Shown here: positions 5,448 to 62,156 of the stretch, piece by piece
How the letters are laid out: each line of letters begins with the position of its first letter
Numbering within the stretch: the first letter of the stretch is position 1
DNA from: Solicola gregarius
Lineage (GTDB): Bacteria; Actinomycetota; Actinomycetes; Propionibacteriales; Nocardioidaceae
Direction: 5' to 3'
DNA length: 64,000 nucleotides
NCBI RefSeq assembly: GCF_025790165.1
Contig: NZ_CP094970.1
Span: forward strand, 1,302,001 to 1,366,000
Translations under genes and position numbers: made by a program
The notes under the pieces: model-generated
What the model was told of the DNA's origin: nothing
Seen by the model: only the letters and a program-made list of their open reading frames with translations
Databases searched by the model: none

Positions 5448-6266
5448 CTACGCGTCGCGGCGTACGAAGAGCACGGTCATCAGCAACAGCAGTGCGCCGA
5501 CGAACGCCGCCATACAGACGCCGCCGCCGACCGCACCGAGCGGCTCGACGCCGCTCAGCGTGTCGATCATGTCGGACATGTCGGCTCGGGTGTACATCTT
5601 GCCGCCGGCCTCGAACGGCAGGTATCTCGCGAGCGTGCCGATCGCACCGGGATCACCTGACGTCGCCGCCTTGATCAGCAGGATGGTACGAACGATCGGC
5701 TCGATCACGATCGGCATCGCCAGCATCGTCACGATCGCGCCGGTCTGGTTGCGTACGAGCCCCGCGAACGCGAGCCCGGCCAGCGCGAACAACGCGGTGT
5801 ACGTCATCGCGCCGAGGATCAGCCCTCGCAGCTCGGCGTCGAAGGCGACGTCGCGGCCGCTGAAGATCGACGCGTTGACGAAGCCGACCAGCATCGCGAG
5901 CGTCGACGCGATCGCCGCGACGACGGCGACCGTGATCACCTTCGCCAGCACGACCGCCCACCGCTTCGGCACCGCCGTCAACGTCGTGCGGATCATCTGA
6001 TGGCGATACTCATGGCCCATCGACAGCACGCCGATGACACCGATGATGTAGGCCATCAGCAGCGGCGCGAACCCGGTCGACGCACCGAGCGTGATGATCG
6101 CGGCGTCGACCTGCGTGCCGCCGGTGCTCGAGGCCTCGACCGACTCCGTGATGATCGCGACCGCCATCGTGGCGAAGAAGTAGAGCACCAGCGTCCCGAT
6201 GATCAGCCAGTACGTGGAGCGGACGGTGAGCAGTCGCGTCCACTCGTAGCGAAGCGCGGCGATCAT
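5448..6266 (-). CDS. ABC-2 type transporter permease
   Basis: A 272-residue integral membrane protein. It starts MIAALRYEWTRLLTVRSTYW, the amphipathic entry typical of ABC-2 permeases, followed by about six hydrophobic segments and a basic tail (LFVRRDA). Its ATG overlaps the TGA of the ATPase gene by four bases, so the two form one exporter. The substrate is unknown; antibiotics, lipids and multidrug efflux are all possible. Confidence 0.85.
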   Translation of the reverse strand: MIAALRYEWTRLLTVRSTYWLIIGTLVLYFFATMAVAIITESVEASSTGGTQVDAAIITLGASTGFAPLLMAYIIGVIGVLSMGHEYRHQMIRTTLTAVPKRWAVVLAKVITVAVVAAIASTLAMLVGFVNASIFSGRDVAFDAELRGLILGAMTYTALFALAGLAFAGLVRNQTGAIVTMLAMPIVIEPIVRTILLIKAATSGDPGAIGTLARYLPFEAGGKMYTRADMSDMIDTLSGVEPLGAVGGGVCMAAFVGALLLLMTVLFVRRDA

Positions 6267-7348
6267 CGGCGGTCCCCGTCATGCGTCGGTGGCGGCTCTC
6301 TGTCCGATCCGTCGGACGGGCGTACCTCGGGCTCACCGTACGGCCGCCGCGTTGCCTGACCGGGCGGTCCGGCCGCACCGGTCGACGGTGGTTGGCGCCC
6401 GGCCAGCTCGGGTGGCAGCTCGATGCCACTGAACTCCTGGTCACGCTCCGTCGCGTCCAGGAACGCCTCCTCGAGGGTGGCCTCCCGCACGAACAGCTCG
6501 TGCAGTCGTACGCCGAGCTCGTACGCCGTGTCGCCGACCTGCTCGATGCTCAGCCGCTTGACGGAGTATCGCGGGAGCCCGCTCTCCGCACCGGTGTCCT
6601 CGGGATCCGCCTCGACGAACCCGCCGAGCTCGGCGAGTTTCGGCCCCAGACGCTCGATATCGGGAGACCGGACGATCACGCTGGTGCGATCGCTCGACCG
6701 GATGAAGTCCGTGACCTGCCCGCTCGCGATCATCCGCCCGCGACCGATCACCACCAGCTGGTCGGCGAGCAGCGCCATCTCCGACAGCAGGTGGCTCGAG
6801 ACGAACACCGACCGTCCCTCGCCGGCGAGCTGCTTGAGCAGGTTGCGCAGCCACTGGATGCCTTCCGGGTCGAGCCCGTTCGCGGGCTCGTCGAGAATCA
6901 GCGTGTGCGGGTCACCCAGAAGCGCGGCGGCCATGCCGAGGCGCTGGCCCATGCCGAGGCTGAACTTCTTCGGCCGGCCGTTGGAAACGGTCGACAGCCC
7001 GACCATCGCGAGCACCTCATCGACCCGGCTGGTGGAGATGCCGTTTGCTGCGGCAAGCATGCGCAGGTGGTTGCGGGCCGTGCGCGTCGGGTGGAACGGC
7101 TTGGCCTCCAGCAGTACGCCGACATGTCGCATCGGCTGGTTGAGGCTCTGGAACGGCTGCCCGTCGTACGTCGTGTTGCCCGACCCGTTGTCCAGCCCGA
7201 GCATCAACCGCATGGTCGTCGACTTGCCCGAGCCGTTCGGGCCGAGGAAGCCCGTCACGCTACCGGGGTTCACCTGGAACGACAGATCGATGACGGCGAC
7301 CTTGCTGCCGTACGACTTGCCCAGGTTGTCCGCTCGAATGACCGCCAT
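6263..7348 (-). CDS. ABC transporter ATP-binding protein
   Basis: A 361-residue ATPase partner of the downstream permease. It carries Walker A GPNGSGKST near residue 40, a signature loop written SLGMGQRLGMA (a common DrrA/BcrA-type variant of LSGGQ), Walker B TLILDEPANGLDP, and an H-loop in SSHLLSEM. The last ~60 residues are Pro/Gly-rich and low in complexity. The start is the ATG at 7346-7348 (MAVIRADNLGKSYG). The frame is open upstream, but the ABC domain begins here. It diverges from the helicase-associated gene across only 41 bp. Confidence 0.9.
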   Translation of the reverse strand: MAVIRADNLGKSYGSKVAVIDLSFQVNPGSVTGFLGPNGSGKSTTMRLMLGLDNGSGNTTYDGQPFQSLNQPMRHVGVLLEAKPFHPTRTARNHLRMLAAANGISTSRVDEVLAMVGLSTVSNGRPKKFSLGMGQRLGMAAALLGDPHTLILDEPANGLDPEGIQWLRNLLKQLAGEGRSVFVSSHLLSEMALLADQLVVIGRGRMIASGQVTDFIRSSDRTSVIVRSPDIERLGPKLAELGGFVEADPEDTGAESGLPRYSVKRLSIEQVGDTAYELGVRLHELFVREATLEEAFLDATERDQEFSGIELPPELAGRQPPSTGAAGPPGQATRRPYGEPEVRPSDGSDREPPPTHDGDRR

Positions 7349-9665: not shown

Positions 9666-10673
9666 GTGTACCGCTCTCGCCGTCCAGACGCCGCCCGAAC
9701 GGTCCCCACTGCCCTCGGGGTGCTGACGCTTGTCGTCGTGCTGCCGACGTCATCGGCAGGTGTGGCACCCGACTCGACGACAGCGGCGGGGGTGTCGCCG
9801 ACGATCGCGAGCCGATCGGACGACGCGGTCGAGAAGAACAAGCCGCCCCGCATCATCGCGCACCGCGGAGCGAGTGCGAAGTTCCCCGAGAACACCATGC
9901 TGTCGTTCCGCAAGGCGATCAACCGCGGTGCCGACTGGATCGAGATGGACGTGCAGCGCACGAAGGACGGCCGCCTCGTCGTGTTCCACGACTGGTCCCT
10001 TCGCCGGACGACCAACGTGGAGAAGGTGTACCCGAAGCTGAAGAGCCCGTCGGTCGGCGACCTCTCGTACAAGAAGCTGCGCAAGCTCGACGCCGGCAAA
10101 TGGAAGAAGAAGCGGTTCAAGGGCGCCAGGATCCCGCCGCTCAAGCAGGTACTGCGACTCGGCAAGAAACGCGACGTCAAGATGCTCGTGGAGTTGAAGA
10201 ACCCGGGCCGCTACCCCGGCATGATGAAGAAGACGCTCAAGCTGTTCAACCAGCTGAACCTGATGAAACGAGGCCACAAGCACGACCGCGTGCAGCTGCA
10301 GAGCTTCAAAATCCGCACGATGCGCCATGCGGCCAAGCACAGTCCGAAGGTCGAGATCGGGTTGCTGTATCCCGACCCGCCCGTGACGCTCAAGCGGCTG
10401 CGCTGGGCGCAGAACATCAACTCCTACCACCGCGAGGTGGAGCGCAAGTACATCCGGCGTGCCCAGAAGGACTACAACATCAGGGTGTTCGTCTGGACGG
10501 TCAACGGCAACGGCGGGGTCAAGCGGGCGATGCGGATGAATGCCAACGGCATCATCACCGACCGGCCCAAACACACCCGCAAGGTGGTGAACCGGAACAA
10601 GCGGTTCGCGCCCGACGAGCTACGCATCCAGCTGCCGCCGTACGACGGCACCGTGCCACGGCATCGCGCTTAG
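9666..10673 (+). CDS. Secreted glycerophosphodiester phosphodiesterase
   Basis: A 335-residue exported enzyme that would hydrolyse glycerophosphodiesters to glycerol-3-phosphate and an alcohol. The GTG at 9666 starts a signal peptide: basic VYRSRRPDAAR, a hydrophobic stretch, then a small-residue region. The GDPD domain begins IIAHRGASAKFPENTM, with catalytic HRGAS, EMDVQRTKDG and VFHDWSLRRTT, and ends with the TIM-barrel closing strand VFVWTVNGNGG...NGIITDRP. The mature protein is strongly basic (KWKKKRFKGAR, KLFNQLNLMKRGHKH), which may aid wall binding. Confidence 0.9.
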   Translation: MYRSRRPDAARTVPTALGVLTLVVVLPTSSAGVAPDSTTAAGVSPTIASRSDDAVEKNKPPRIIAHRGASAKFPENTMLSFRKAINRGADWIEMDVQRTKDGRLVVFHDWSLRRTTNVEKVYPKLKSPSVGDLSYKKLRKLDAGKWKKKRFKGARIPPLKQVLRLGKKRDVKMLVELKNPGRYPGMMKKTLKLFNQLNLMKRGHKHDRVQLQSFKIRTMRHAAKHSPKVEIGLLYPDPPVTLKRLRWAQNINSYHREVERKYIRRAQKDYNIRVFVWTVNGNGGVKRAMRMNANGIITDRPKHTRKVVNRNKRFAPDELRIQLPPYDGTVPRHRA

Positions 10674-16062: not shown

Positions 16063-16622
16063 GCGGCTGGCAGGCAGGACTCGAGCGCCGGTGGTCGGAG
16101 CCGCACCGCCATCACCACGACCGTACGCATCTCGCCGACGTGCTCGCGGCACTCGACGAGCTGGCGGCCGGCGGCGAGCCGTTCGACGCCGAGGTCGTAC
16201 GTACGGCGGCATGGTTCCATGACGCGGTGTACGACCCGCGCGCCGATGACAACGAGGAGCGCTCGGCCGAACTCGCGCTCGAGCTGCTGCCCTCGGACGA
16301 GAATCCCAGCGAGGTCGCCCGGCTCGTACGCATCACCCGAACCCATGCGGCCGATGCCGGCGACTCGAACGCCGCCGCCCTGTGCGATGCCGACCTCTCC
16401 GTGCTCGCATCCGACCGCGAGCGCTATGACCGATACGCCGACAACGTGCGTCGCGAGTACGCCCACGTACCCGACGCCGACTTCCATGCCGGCCGAGCGG
16501 CAATCCTCGTGGGGTTCCTCGAGCGCGCCGCACTGTTCACGACCGCGACCGGCCGCGCGCGCTGGGAGTCGCCCGCCCGCGCCAACCTCGACCGAGAGAT
16601 CGCCACCCTCCGCTCACGGTGA
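16059..16622 (+). CDS. HD-domain metal-dependent phosphohydrolase
   Basis: A 187-residue protein of the COG4339-like HD family. It opens with WSEPHRHHHDRTHLADVLAAL and carries the HD pair in AAWFHDAVYDPRADDNEERS, which should bind a divalent metal. The ATG overlaps the helD stop (ATGA), so the two are co-translated. Its own TGA supplies the first two bases of a 22-bp repeat unit (GA of GAGGAGAGG). The substrate is unknown. Confidence 0.85.
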   Translation: MSGWQAGLERRWSEPHRHHHDRTHLADVLAALDELAAGGEPFDAEVVRTAAWFHDAVYDPRADDNEERSAELALELLPSDENPSEVARLVRITRTHAADAGDSNAAALCDADLSVLASDRERYDRYADNVRREYAHVPDADFHAGRAAILVGFLERAALFTTATGRARWESPARANLDREIATLRSR

Positions 16623-16751
16623 GGAGAGGATTCCGGCCCTCTCGCGAGAGAATCGCGTACGCGCCGCGGCCGGGATCCTCTCCTCGCGGGGCCGGGATCC
16701 TCTCCTCGCGGGGCCGGGATCCTCTCCTCGCGGGGCCGGGATCCTCTCCTC
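16621..16751. repeat. Phased 22-bp repeat array (1 forward, 4 inverted units)
   Basis: The forward unit at 16621-16642 (GAGGAGAGGATTCCGGCC...) is followed by a 21-bp unrelated stretch. Four inverted units of exactly 22 bp follow, at 16664-16685, 16686-16707, 16708-16729 and 16730-16751; the last three are identical. The first base pair of the array on each side belongs to a stop codon: TGA of the HD gene on the left, and TGA of the DUF4031 gene on the opposite strand on the right. The array fills the whole convergent gap and may act as a terminator. It is related to the array at 33428-33625. Confidence 0.9.
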
Positions 16752-17010
16752 AGCGGTGTTTGCGGCGGCGTAGGCCCGACTCGACGAGCGCGTGGACGAG
16801 CACCTTGCTCGAAACCGGTGTCGCCCCCGCCGCGACGACGGCATCGAACAGCCGGTCCGGCACGTCGTAGTGGTCGCGCTCGAACAGCCGCTCCGGAAGG
16901 CCCTGCTCCTGCGCAAATGCATGCAGCTCGGCGTACGACGCCGTGCTGACCAGATGCGACCACAACCGCCCGTGCCCGGGCCACGACGGCGGATCGATCA
17001 GGATCGTCAT
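16750..17010 (-). CDS. DUF4031 domain protein
   Basis: An 86-residue protein beginning MTILIDPPSWPGHGRLWSHL, the standard opening of DUF4031, with HYDVPDRLFDAVVAAGA later and a basic tail ending GLRRRKHR. The ATG at 17008-17010 is chosen because the domain begins exactly there; the frame continues upstream only as a short nonconserved extension. The stop codon TGA runs directly into the 22-bp repeat array. The family function is unknown; it is sometimes found near HD-domain proteins. Confidence 0.85.
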   Translation of the reverse strand: MTILIDPPSWPGHGRLWSHLVSTASYAELHAFAQEQGLPERLFERDHYDVPDRLFDAVVAAGATPVSSKVLVHALVESGLRRRKHR

Positions 17011-33299: not shown

Positions 33300-33427
33300 G
33301 CCGGCTCCTTGGGGAGTTCGCCGCTGGGGTGATTCCGTTCTACACCCGTGTGACCCGGGCCACAACGTTGCAGAGACGTTGCAGCGACGTCGCACCAACC
33401 CGCTGACGAGGCCCCTCCCCGCACGGT

Positions 33428-33625
33428 GAGGAGAGAGTTCTGGCCCCCCGAGGAGAGAACCCCGGCCCCCCGAAGAGAGGATCCCGGCCCAGCGAGGAGA
33501 GAGTTGTGGCCGCCCGAGGAGAGAACCCCGGCCGTCCGAGGAGAGAGTCCCGGCCCAGCGAGCGGTCAGAACTCTCTCCTCGCGGGGCCACGAGTCTCTC
33601 GTCACAGGGCCAGAACTCTCTCCTC
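33428..33625. repeat. Phased 22-bp repeat array (6 forward, 3 inverted units)
   Basis: Exactly nine contiguous 22-bp units. Six forward units start at 33428, 33450, 33472, 33494, 33516 and 33538 (consensus GAGGAGAGnnnYYYKGGCCC). Three inverted units follow at 33560, 33582 and 33604 with no break in register. Both ends are flanked by the same ACGG-T, giving ACGGTGAGGAGAG as a terminal inverted sequence. Units differ from one another by several bases. The array stands between coxS (start 33299) and a gene relic. Nothing recognisable lies in 33300-33427. Confidence 0.9.
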
Positions 33626-33630
33626 ACCGT

Positions 33631-33819
33631 TCAGGGGACGAAGGCTTCGATGACCAGCGGGTGCGTGCGATGCGGTGCCGACGCGAGAGCGGTACGCAGC
33701 GCGCCGGTGTCGTACACCCGCACCACCTCGCAGCCCGATGCGAGACAGCTCCTCGCGGAAGTTTGCCGACCGTACATATGTACGTATAGCGAACCTACTA
33801 TGCGGCGATCACTCGTCAA
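33631..33819 (-). pseudogene. Possible C-terminal relic of a thiamine-diphosphate enzyme
   Basis: A 62-codon minus-strand frame. Its last ~38 residues, CEVVRVYDTGALRTALASA...HPLVIEAFVP, resemble the extreme C-terminus of acetolactate synthase or benzoylformate decarboxylase-type ThDP enzymes, where a Gly-Cys-x-x-x-x-V strand, an acidic-residue/Leu helix and a closing P(L/V)VIE-V strand occur. The preceding residues match no such enzyme. A neighbouring frame encodes NFREELSRIGLRGG, which hints at frameshift decay. There is no ribosome site. It could be chance. Confidence 0.3.
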
Positions 33820-34652: not shown

Positions 34653-34711
34653 GCGAGTGGCGCAGATCCGTTGCTCAGGCAGCCTCAAAGCAACGGATCT
34701 GCGCCACTCGC
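34653..34711. repeat. Hairpin repeat flanking the DUF559-like gene, copy 1
   Basis: Perfect 23-bp arms (34653-34675 and 34689-34711) around a 13-base loop. The arm starts GCGAGTGGCGCAGATCCG. It lies between the iclR stop and the stop of the minus-strand gene. A second copy in the same orientation lies at 35782-35840, 1.1 kb away, on the other side of that gene. Confidence 0.85.
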
Positions 34712-34723
34712 ACATTTCAGTCG

Positions 34724-35704
34724 CTAGCTATTGGTCGACCGGGGAGAGATGTCCCGGACGAAGCGGTGCATTCTCGCCGCGAGCCGATCCCTGCCACCGG
34801 GCGTCAGCGACGATCGGCGGTACTCGACGAGCCAGCCCTGTATGCGCCGCGGGTCGTGCCGTAGCCCGAGGGCCCCCTCGGCGTCGAGCAGGATGCGGCT
34901 CGCCTCCCGATGAATCTCCGATGCGGTGTACCCGAACCGCTCGAATCCGATCCGGATCAGCAGCTTCTCGCGACGAAGGTCGGCCCGGTGCTGCGGCCCG
35001 TCTCGGTGTACCGCACCGTCGTACTCGCTGAGCCGCCTGGTCGTACCGAGCCGTAGATCTGCGCGTGCGACGATCGTCCCGGCAGCGTCACGTATGCATG
35101 CCTGCGGCTCGACATCGGTGATGCCGGACAGCACATGGACGAGCCGAAGGATCGTCTCCCATGCCGACTCGCTCCGCCCATCCGCGAGCACCATCGCTCG
35201 CCGGAGCCGCTTGACGCCACGCCGACCCGGCACGACCGCCCGGTCGAGAGATGCCATCGTGCAGTCTCCGAGATGGAGCGCCGAGTCGATCGCGACAACG
35301 AGATCGATCAGGGACAGATCCTCGGCGAGCTCCAGTATCGTCCATTCGCTCGATGCGGTGGGGAGGTCCTCGAGCGCGTGCCGATGAGCGCTCGGGATCG
35401 CACATCGGCGGACGTACACCCCGCGTCGATCGTGGTGTGGCGAGCCGCCGTCGGTGCACGCGATCACCGGCCAGTCCCGCATCCCGGAGGGAAGCCACCA
35501 GCCGCGCAGTTGTGCCGACGTGACGTGGGTGAAGACCGCGTTGTCCGCGAGCGCCAGCCGGATCGCCGCACAGTGCTTGACCAGGCTGGCCGCGTCCTCC
35601 CGCGGCATCGAGACGCCGTCGGTCGGATGCCACCAACGCGGATGGCGAAGCTGCATCTGGGTCAGACCGCGTTCGGCGCGGTCACGATGTCGAATCGGCT
35701 GCAT
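34724..35704 (-). CDS. AbiEi/DUF559-like protein (putative nuclease-fold)
   Basis: A 326-residue protein of a widespread actinobacterial group. The N-terminal half has an AbiEi-antitoxin-like pattern (NAVFTHVTSAQLRGWWLP). The C-terminal half has a Vsr/DUF559-like fold: SESAWETILRLVHVLSGI, then RADLRLGTTRRLSEYDGAVH, RREKLLIRIGFERFGYTASE. The EYDG pair sits where the family has a catalytic acid. The ATG at 35702-35704 is used; a second ATG 48 bases in is equally plausible. Both flanks carry the same hairpin, so the gene may travel as a small cassette. Function unknown. Confidence 0.6.
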   Translation of the reverse strand: MQPIRHRDRAERGLTQMQLRHPRWWHPTDGVSMPREDAASLVKHCAAIRLALADNAVFTHVTSAQLRGWWLPSGMRDWPVIACTDGGSPHHDRRGVYVRRCAIPSAHRHALEDLPTASSEWTILELAEDLSLIDLVVAIDSALHLGDCTMASLDRAVVPGRRGVKRLRRAMVLADGRSESAWETILRLVHVLSGITDVEPQACIRDAAGTIVARADLRLGTTRRLSEYDGAVHRDGPQHRADLRREKLLIRIGFERFGYTASEIHREASRILLDAEGALGLRHDPRRIQGWLVEYRRSSLTPGGRDRLAARMHRFVRDISPRSTNS

Positions 35705-35781: not shown

Positions 35782-35840
35782 GCGAGTGGCGCAAGTCCGT
35801 TGCTCAGATAGCTTAAAAGCAACGGATCTGCGCCACTCGC
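35782..35840. repeat. Hairpin repeat flanking the DUF559-like gene, copy 2
   Basis: Arms 35782-35804 and 35818-35840 (23 bp, two mismatches) around a 13-base loop. The right arm is identical to that of copy 1. The loop keeps the TCAG..AGC pattern in the same orientation, so the two elements are direct repeats. It lies upstream of the DUF559-like gene start and 17 bp from the stop of the PIG-L gene. Confidence 0.85.
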
Positions 35841-61970: not shown

Positions 61971-61985
61971 CGGCGATCGACGAGA

Positions 61986-62059
61986 ACAATCCGCCGAGGT
62001 ACGGCGTCCTGCCACAAGACGGCGCTCTTGTGGCAGGACGCCGTACCTCGGCGGATTGT
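61986..62059. terminator. Very long perfect hairpin between convergent genes
   Basis: 34-bp perfect arms (61986-62019 and 62026-62059) with a 6-base loop (CGGCGC). The arm contains CCGCCGAGGTACGG, the start shared with the hairpin at 5381. It lies between the sigma-partner gene (+) and groEL (-). No T-run, so it is either a bidirectional terminator or a palindromic repeat. Confidence 0.8.
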
Positions 62060-62094
62060 GGCGGGTACGACAGCGGATTGTGGCGGGTACGACA
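62051..62094. repeat. Tandem duplication of a 22-bp unit
   Basis: Two identical 22-bp units starting GCGGATTGTGGCGGG (62051-62072 and 62073-62094) follow the hairpin, the first overlapping its right arm by nine bases. They lie 63 bp before the groEL stop. The period equals that of the GAGGAGAG arrays, but the sequence is unrelated. Confidence 0.8.
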
Positions 62095-62156
62095 ACGGCC
62101 CCCGGCGAGTACGCCGGGGGCCGAGTCGATGTGGTGCTACGACGAGCGGGCTGGAC

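Follow-up and report, generated by a model that had tools for sequence, protein, structure and literature searches.

Palindromic arrays of 22-bp units at gene ends in Solicola gregarius and a nuclease gene enclosed by related arrays in Nocardioidaceae

The array at 33428-33625 and its surroundings

The window analysed here is a 64,000-bp stretch of the Solicola gregarius genome, positions 1302001-1366000 of a contig of 4,915,757 bases. Between two genes that we read as divergent lies an array of 22-bp units, six forward and then three inverted, which occupies the 198 bp from 33428 to 33625 (Table 1). Its left neighbour, on the minus strand, is presumably a coxS-like gene; its other neighbour is an IclR gene according to Pfam. 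Genes were called with our own codon-score script trained on the window, rather than taken from annotation. Sequence inspection, TRF and pattern search agree that the array is 6 x 22 plus 3 x 22 bp long with no change in unit length, which confirms the preliminary description of this DNA. Forward cores start at 33428, 33450, 33472, 33494, 33516 and 33538, and reverse cores at 33564, 33586 and 33608, in the pattern search. Also as described earlier, ACGGTGAGGAGAG occurs at both outer ends in opposite orientations, and the symmetric element therefore extends from 33423 to 33630. To the right of the array, a short minus-strand open frame, for which Pfam matched no family, ends at 33631-33633. We take this frame for a gene remnant, which would explain the divergent placement of the array.

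Table 1. Elements of the array family and an adjoining frame in the window
Feature	Position	Strand	Basis
Entire solo element, bounded by ACGGTGA and its inverse	33423..33630	.	sequence, pattern search, RNA fold
Forward arm, six 22-bp units	33428..33559	+	sequence, TRF, pattern search
Reverse arm, three 22-bp units	33560..33625	-	sequence, TRF, pattern search
Open frame ending at the element, putative gene remnant	33631..33735	-	no Pfam match
Second element, one forward and four reverse cores	16616..16756	.	TRF, sequence

The array had been described as a single locus. The array itself stands; the window nevertheless holds a second element (Table 1), each end of which provides the stop codon of one of two convergent genes. 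In total, 17 unit matches with at most two mismatches were found in the window, as compared to a mean of 4.94 in 100 shuffled windows, the highest of which had 12. As RNA, the segment 33424-33629 folds at -133.8 kcal/mol (z -9.83), and none of 200 shuffled sequences was equally stable.

Two other arrangements in the window are recorded here as separate observations. Similar hairpins of about 58 bases at 34654-34711 and 35782-35840 (-51.4 and -44.9 kcal/mol) bracket a minus-strand DUF559-like gene at 34724-35704 (Pfam E 0.05), which has TTTTCCACA upstream and sits between the convergent plus-strand IclR gene and an apparently PIG-L-like gene on the minus strand. This is the same design as that of the nuclease locus described below, with another repeat; PADLOC gave no match for the DUF559-like protein. 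At 61985-62113 there is a long palindrome with about two copies of a 22-bp repeat, flanked by an upstream gene and, on the minus strand, a gene presumed from its appearance to be groEL.

A dispersed repeat family at gene 3' ends

A genome search with the unit pattern, as the preliminary description had proposed, gave 139 exact copies of the unit core against none for a reversed-pattern control, and 228 matches against 21 when one mismatch was allowed. Arrays were delimited in 47 sources, made up of the window and 46 fetched stretches, and 45 of these sources yielded at least 51 arrays. They are a working set rather than a census, in which the two arms around the nuclease gene of this genome count as separate arrays. 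Two stretches (L114 and L115) contained no array at the cut-off. The delimited arrays follow the orientation rule noticed at the first locus: a reverse unit precedes a forward unit in none of the 51, and of the 124 steps between same-strand neighbours, 121 measure exactly 22 bp and one more is a multiple of that length. At 84 of 102 ends, the tetranucleotide ahead of the first TGA is ACGG or ACGC. Among 48 two-armed elements, 38 have an inner-core gap of 7-10 bp plus 0, 22 or 44, and 10 are otherwise spaced. The flip of orientation on a unit boundary at 33428-33625 reflects a short centre of this kind. Similarity between arms is higher within an element than between elements (0.851 versus 0.760, n=48; 0 of 10000 permutations). 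Along the contig the delimited arrays are spread unevenly, with 2, 1, 7, 2, 0, 4, 10, 13, 11 and 1 in successive 0.5-Mb segments. The plasmid collection contained no match to the array at 33428-33625.

In terms of gene context, the neighbouring genes are convergent for 31 of the 51 arrays, tandem for 18 and divergent for 2, and the convergent share is well above that at other junctions of the same genome (24 of 169; Fisher p 2e-10). A gene 3' end adjoins 48 arrays; the array at 33428-33625 is one of the three remaining. At 31 of 80 array-adjoining 3' ends (19/45 left, 12/35 right) the TGA of the first unit serves as the stop codon. Arrays that enclose no gene, referred to as solos below, behave similarly elsewhere: 17 solos of other species, with limits set by eye, comprise 13 convergent, 3 tandem and 1 divergent case. 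The context counts for other genomes cover 40 of the 43 close nuclease loci and these 17 solos, and leave aside the array pairs of two loci (L122 and L180).

Strong hairpins at gene 3' ends are a feature of intrinsic terminators, and the earlier view that the array is not a terminator would be premature, as the elements adjoin stop codons and the RNA fold at 33428-33625 is very strong. It could be argued that the solos are mainly bidirectional terminators useful to the host at convergent junctions, and that a nuclease only supplied their sequence in the past. The placement at 3' ends, the stability of the fold relative to shuffled sequences and the covariation of the arms all agree with this explanation. 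It leaves four things unaccounted for, namely the nuclease gene found between arms, the fixed period, the different units in a sister species, and the two unit families that match two nucleases within one genome; in addition, no U-rich tract was seen after the stems in the elements inspected by eye. We consider this explanation unlikely.

Array units differ between related species

A strict pattern of the unit, searched over 84,980 species with S. gregarius excluded, matched only Aeromicrobium terrae, another member of the Nocardioidaceae. With a wider pattern, 3 of 245 genomes of the family matched: S. gregarius itself, A. terrae (G129, 29 matches) and one genome with a single hit. A count of the strict GAGGAGAG pattern across 149 genomes of the family put the second genome of the genus at control level (13 versus 18 for the control). 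This pattern had suggested a species-specific unit family, an idea overturned by A. terrae and by the unit of that other genome. The latter (G008), the only other sampled genome of the genus, has a different unit, TGACACGCGAGAA, in 17 copies against 0 for the control, and its elements keep the 22-bp spacing, the forward-then-reverse order and the position at stop codons.

A scarcity of copies in relatives had been named beforehand as a sign against the array being a selected structure. Taken literally, that sign is present, because A. terrae is the one further species in which near-identical units were found; in spirit it is absent, because G008 and other relatives keep period and orientation with a different unit.

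Comparison of individual sites indicates both shared and differing positions. At four of eight G008 loci compared, an element is also present at the same site in S. gregarius, and the other four had no match in the fetched stretches of that genome. Conversely, five S. gregarius sites, selected without regard to G008 elements, were aligned to G008: two are empty there, one carries a G008-type element and two contain unrelated DNA. Three more sites with elements in both species were found by starting from G008 elements. At the empty G008 site corresponding to the S. gregarius element at 16620 the two stop codons overlap, by our own reading of the sequence, and at that corresponding to 3371172 they abut. 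Compared by eye, these two empty sites revealed no clear target-site duplication.

Several further arrangements were noted during these comparisons. Elements at 4151868 and 4158929 of S. gregarius (L148) bound about 7 kb that is absent from G008, where the flanks are 151 bases apart. At 3726697-3728383 (L072) two palindromes surround two genes, which by eye encode alpha/beta-hydrolase-like and MarR-like proteins, and G008 has one palindrome at this site. In A. terrae (L122, G129:C2), a hexapeptide-repeat (carbonic-anhydrase-like) gene has arrays of the S. gregarius unit type on each flank, and the array to its left sits between divergent genes. A stretch of 150-170 bp at 10492-10662 of locus L147 has six dispersed relatives in G008 with 76-84% identity.

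A nuclease gene is enclosed by array pairs in 11 genera

At about 4426661-4427955 of the S. gregarius contig, two arrays enclose one gene. The G008 genome contains a gene whose product is 55% identical to that of S. gregarius; it lies inside an element at another site, and this site holds a gene-less palindrome in S. gregarius. The proteins, described in the next section, have a nuclease-like domain. In the ORF lists of these two loci we recognised no second gene between the arms that would encode a toxin or a nucleotidyltransferase. A profile of the two proteins was searched in the family genomes, and 182 of 245 genomes matched at E 1e-25. All matches listed at 268 bits or more form a close tier of 43 loci from 35 genomes and 11 genera of one family, and 20 distant homologues were picked from lower-scoring matches before their flanks were viewed.

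The flanks of the close homologues are characteristic. An inverted match between left and right flanks is present at 41 of 43 loci, as compared to 8 of 400 random spans. Arrays with a 21/22-bp period that score above the 99% level of random windows, a pool that itself contained a few real arrays (maximum score 42), occur on at least one side in 40 of 43 and on both sides in 31 of 43. Where enough flank was available, 39 of 40 loci lie between convergent genes. Among the 20 distant homologues, 15 have an inverted flank match and 11 have 22-bp arrays on both sides; in 6 the best period is 32 or 33 bp on at least one side, and 3 are without an array. TRF returned 26 rows for the window, and short GC-rich repeats are not rare in it, so chance or simple tandem duplication with no underlying system deserves mention; against the shuffled windows, none of which reached the observed count, the 139 to 0 contrast in the genome and the inverted flanks at 41 of 43 loci versus 8 of 400 spans, we regard its probability as negligible.

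Near 24 of the 43 close loci (8 genera) there is a frame with the C-terminal motif of the gene to the left of the G008 nuclease element, a gene which we take to be RelA-like. In S. gregarius the site beside the RelA-like gene carries a solo and the nuclease gene lies elsewhere. Judged from these neighbourhoods, one site seems to have harboured the nuclease form for a long time, and the S. gregarius solo there looks like a derivative of it. The same 24 loci seem to share one site; this speaks against the mechanism proposed below, as inheritance, and not activity, may account for most occurrences of the nuclease form. In the protein tree, the two nucleases of the genus are not joined.

The enclosed gene combines an AbiEi-like region with a Vsr-like domain

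The AlphaFold model of the nuclease is confident, with a pLDDT of 93.8. In a comparison with the PDB, residues 197-300 of this predicted model resemble the catalytic domain of I-Bth0305I (Z 10.8, rmsd 2.6 over 93 residues) and Vsr (Z 8.8), which corresponds to a Vsr-type catalytic fold. All 43 close homologues have E200, D233, H251 and D260, residues singled out by this invariance rather than by residue-level alignment to a solved structure. The N-terminal part is related to the DNA-binding AbiEi component of AbiE type IV toxin-antitoxin systems according to Foldseek (E 5.2e-6), PADLOC (AbiEi, 3.4e-9, protein of S. gregarius) and Pfam, with the structural match over residues 5-192 reaching a Z of only 6.8 at rmsd 8.5. 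In Pfam at E up to 0.1, the MTES_1575 nuclease family was found in 41 and AbiEi_4 in 31 of 50 aligned members; the S. gregarius protein itself is under the MTES_1575 cutoff (22 versus 38.2 bits). PHROGs gave no match for two of the nucleases, NCBIfam gave none for six of seven proteins and weak hits far under cutoff for the seventh (L223), and the profile searched against sequences of solved structures had one hit only (E 0.83). The gene thus appears, from the predicted structure and family matches, to join an AbiEi-like region to a Vsr/I-Bth0305I-like nuclease domain.

According to an excerpt of PMC7319586, each of AbiEi and Rv2827c binds inverted repeats of 23 bp in its own promoter, two in the case of AbiEi and four in that of Rv2827c. 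The idea of a helix-phased array of protein sites, put forward in the preliminary description, gains indirect support from this relationship and from the unit lengths of 21/22 bp, or 32-33 bp in 6 of 20 distant homologues, which are about two or three helical turns. The relationship also invites another explanation, in which the protein would control its own expression as a regulator of AbiE-like or orphan antitoxin type, with the arrays as operators, and the dispersed copies would be decoy or regulon sites that arose by duplication and gene conversion with no nuclease action. The AbiEi-like N-terminus and the promoter repeats of AbiEi and Rv2827c speak in its favour. We nevertheless find it quite unlikely, as the arrays flank the gene on both sides and the solos are mostly at 3' ends and not at promoters, the ORF lists of the two loci contain no gene between the arms that we recognise as a toxin, and the four acidic and histidine residues of the nuclease domain are invariant.

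Upstream of the gene, TCCACAG is present at 41 of 43 close loci, as compared to 0.76% of random windows, and in 32 of 43 it is 42-51 bases before the start of the match. Among the 20 distant homologues, 7 have it upstream in the orientation of the gene and 10 on the opposite strand. With the surrounding bases the motif reads [TC][CT][GA]TCCACAGG. One form of this pattern is TTGTCCACA, the actinobacterial DnaA box as given in an excerpt of PMC4285127, and DnaA may therefore act at this site, to judge by the match between the motifs.

Unit type follows nuclease type

For the 40 of 43 close loci with measurable arms, similarity of units is correlated with identity of the enclosed proteins (Mantel r 0.38 for all 40 loci and r 0.50 for 23 loci of one genus; 0 of 1000 permutations in each test). 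By region of the protein, the correlation for the 40 loci and for the genus is 0.44 and 0.54 in the middle part, 0.33 and 0.47 in the nuclease domain, and 0.19 and 0.40 in the N-terminal helix-turn-helix. Such a correlation could result from co-inheritance alone. Several genomes encode two nuclease paralogues with two unit types.

Solos were sampled in three genomes. Within 400 kb of G131, four solos have the unit of one of its nucleases and one has the unit of the other; in a G086 sample of the same size, the 32-bp unit of its nuclease occurs in one solo. In cross-checks, the two G131 unit patterns occurred 0 and 1 times in the G086 sample, and the G086 pattern occurred once in the G131 sample. 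The 133 kb sampled from G069 contained no solo of its nuclease's unit, only one lone 10-mer.

These differences in units bear on whether the arrays are iteron-like sites for a host protein that organises or replicates the chromosome, unrelated to the nuclease. The constant period of about two helical turns, the strict orientation and the uneven spread of delimited arrays along the chromosome are compatible with that explanation. The unit changes, though, between two species of one genus and between paralogues of one genome, and since a conserved host protein would not predict species- and paralogue-specific units, we judge it very improbable. The term iterons, used in the preliminary description, likewise finds no support in its replication sense, as dozens of arrays lie at gene 3' ends.

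A proposed array-nuclease element

The array-nuclease architecture recurs in 11 genera, is placed at convergent junctions and has units that match the nuclease type; from this we infer that the nuclease binds and moves the arrays. The array at 33428-33625 is probably a solo, that is, a gene-less satellite of a two-part array-nuclease element. The dispersed family and the nuclease partner are beyond what the preliminary description could see.

In the proposed mechanism, a complete element would be an inverted pair of arrays, with 21/22-bp or in some distant cases 32/33-bp units, around the AbiEi-like/Vsr-like gene. Through the AbiEi-like region, a single protein would bind to each unit, with all of them aligned along the same side of the helix, and a protein complex would form across both arms. 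The nuclease would then cut the ends of the arms or an empty target, and repair or copying would set the element at another convergent stop-codon junction, with subsequent gene loss leaving palindromic solos. The DnaA-box-like upstream site might couple nuclease expression to replication, at a time when repair could draw on a sister copy. Transcription from both sides may end at the hairpin, and insertion would for that reason be harmless. A unit length near two or three helical turns, together with a free sequence, is what we would expect from selection for binding on the same face.

It is conceivable, although we would rather doubt it, that these elements represent a separate class of nuclease and satellite, in which a homing-type nuclease reads helically phased repeats through its AbiEi-like region, installs them at convergent stop-codon junctions, has its expression timed to replication via the DnaA box, and keeps gene-less palindromes in step, a design that would also have been reached with unrelated nucleases. 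Such unrelated nucleases could be the GIY-YIG-like gene of G069 and perhaps, as a second case, the DUF559-like gene about 1 kb from the array in the window. The G069 gene, a small gene at 5560-6360 of locus L252 that we presume to be GIY-YIG from its motif, lies between inverted copies of GCTGGTTGAGCGAGCGAAGCGAGTCGAAACC and has GTTGTCCACAGG beside it.

These arrays are unusual in their link to a nuclease gene across one family of bacteria, and we file them under no known family; the pairing appears to be a type of mobile or domesticated DNA not described before. In the open PMC literature, the titles and beginnings of abstracts among the matches listed do not describe phased arrays that bracket a nuclease gene; no pairing of GIY-YIG with 'repetitive extragenic palindromic' was found there, and the matches for DUF559 with palindromic are unrelated by title and abstract beginning. 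The spread of short palindromes is still poorly understood, according to an excerpt of PMC8266576. For this question REPIN-RAYT is the known case of one enzyme tending short palindromes. If the array-nuclease pairing is an independent system, its unrelated nuclease, its repeat of fixed length and changing sequence, and its paralogue pairs with two units would make the question testable. It would also provide a role for the group of AbiEi/Vsr-like genes and one explanation of dispersed gene-end hairpins in Nocardioidaceae.

Comparison with known systems

Iterons of replication origins form a cluster confined to the origin together with a Rep gene, whereas the arrays described here are dispersed over the contig at gene 3' ends. 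As in MITEs and other IS-derived sequences, there are gene-less dispersed copies that are lineage-specific, with some sites empty in the sister species. The differences from this group are that no target duplication was identified at the two sites compared by eye, that the arms differ in their number of whole units, and that the enclosed gene is not a transposase of any family in the Pfam scan.

AbiEi and Rv2827c share with the nuclease the N-terminal fold and family matches, and their binding to 23-bp repeats (PMC7319586, in the excerpt cited above) recalls the units of the arrays. In our case, by contrast, the AbiEi-like region is fused to a nuclease domain and repeat arrays lie on both sides of the gene. 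The nuclease domain is in turn closest to the EDxHD/Vsr-like homing endonuclease I-Bth0305I in the PDB comparison (Z 10.8), and the G069 gene with a GIY-YIG motif, like the nuclease gene, lies between its own inverted repeats. Free-standing homing endonucleases differ in that the protein described here has an AbiEi-like region, is bracketed by arrays and is accompanied by dispersed gene-less copies.

REP hairpins have GTAG or a similar tetranucleotide beside them; GTAG/CGTC also appears in an excerpt of PMC3733652. The resemblance of our arrays to REP/REPIN-RAYT systems lies in palindromic extragenic repeats at high copy number (139 exact cores, at least 51 arrays). The enzyme between the arms is AbiEi-like and Vsr-like here, and not a HuH (Y1) transposase as in RAYT (TnpA-REP); moreover, the arms are tandem arrays of 21/22- or 32/33-bp units, and the elements are mostly at convergent stop-codon junctions. 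In REPIN-RAYT systems, palindromic extragenic repeats in many copies are tended by one or few enzyme genes that are flanked by the same repeats. By this analogy, the array-nuclease system would work most like REPIN-RAYT, with an unrelated enzyme.
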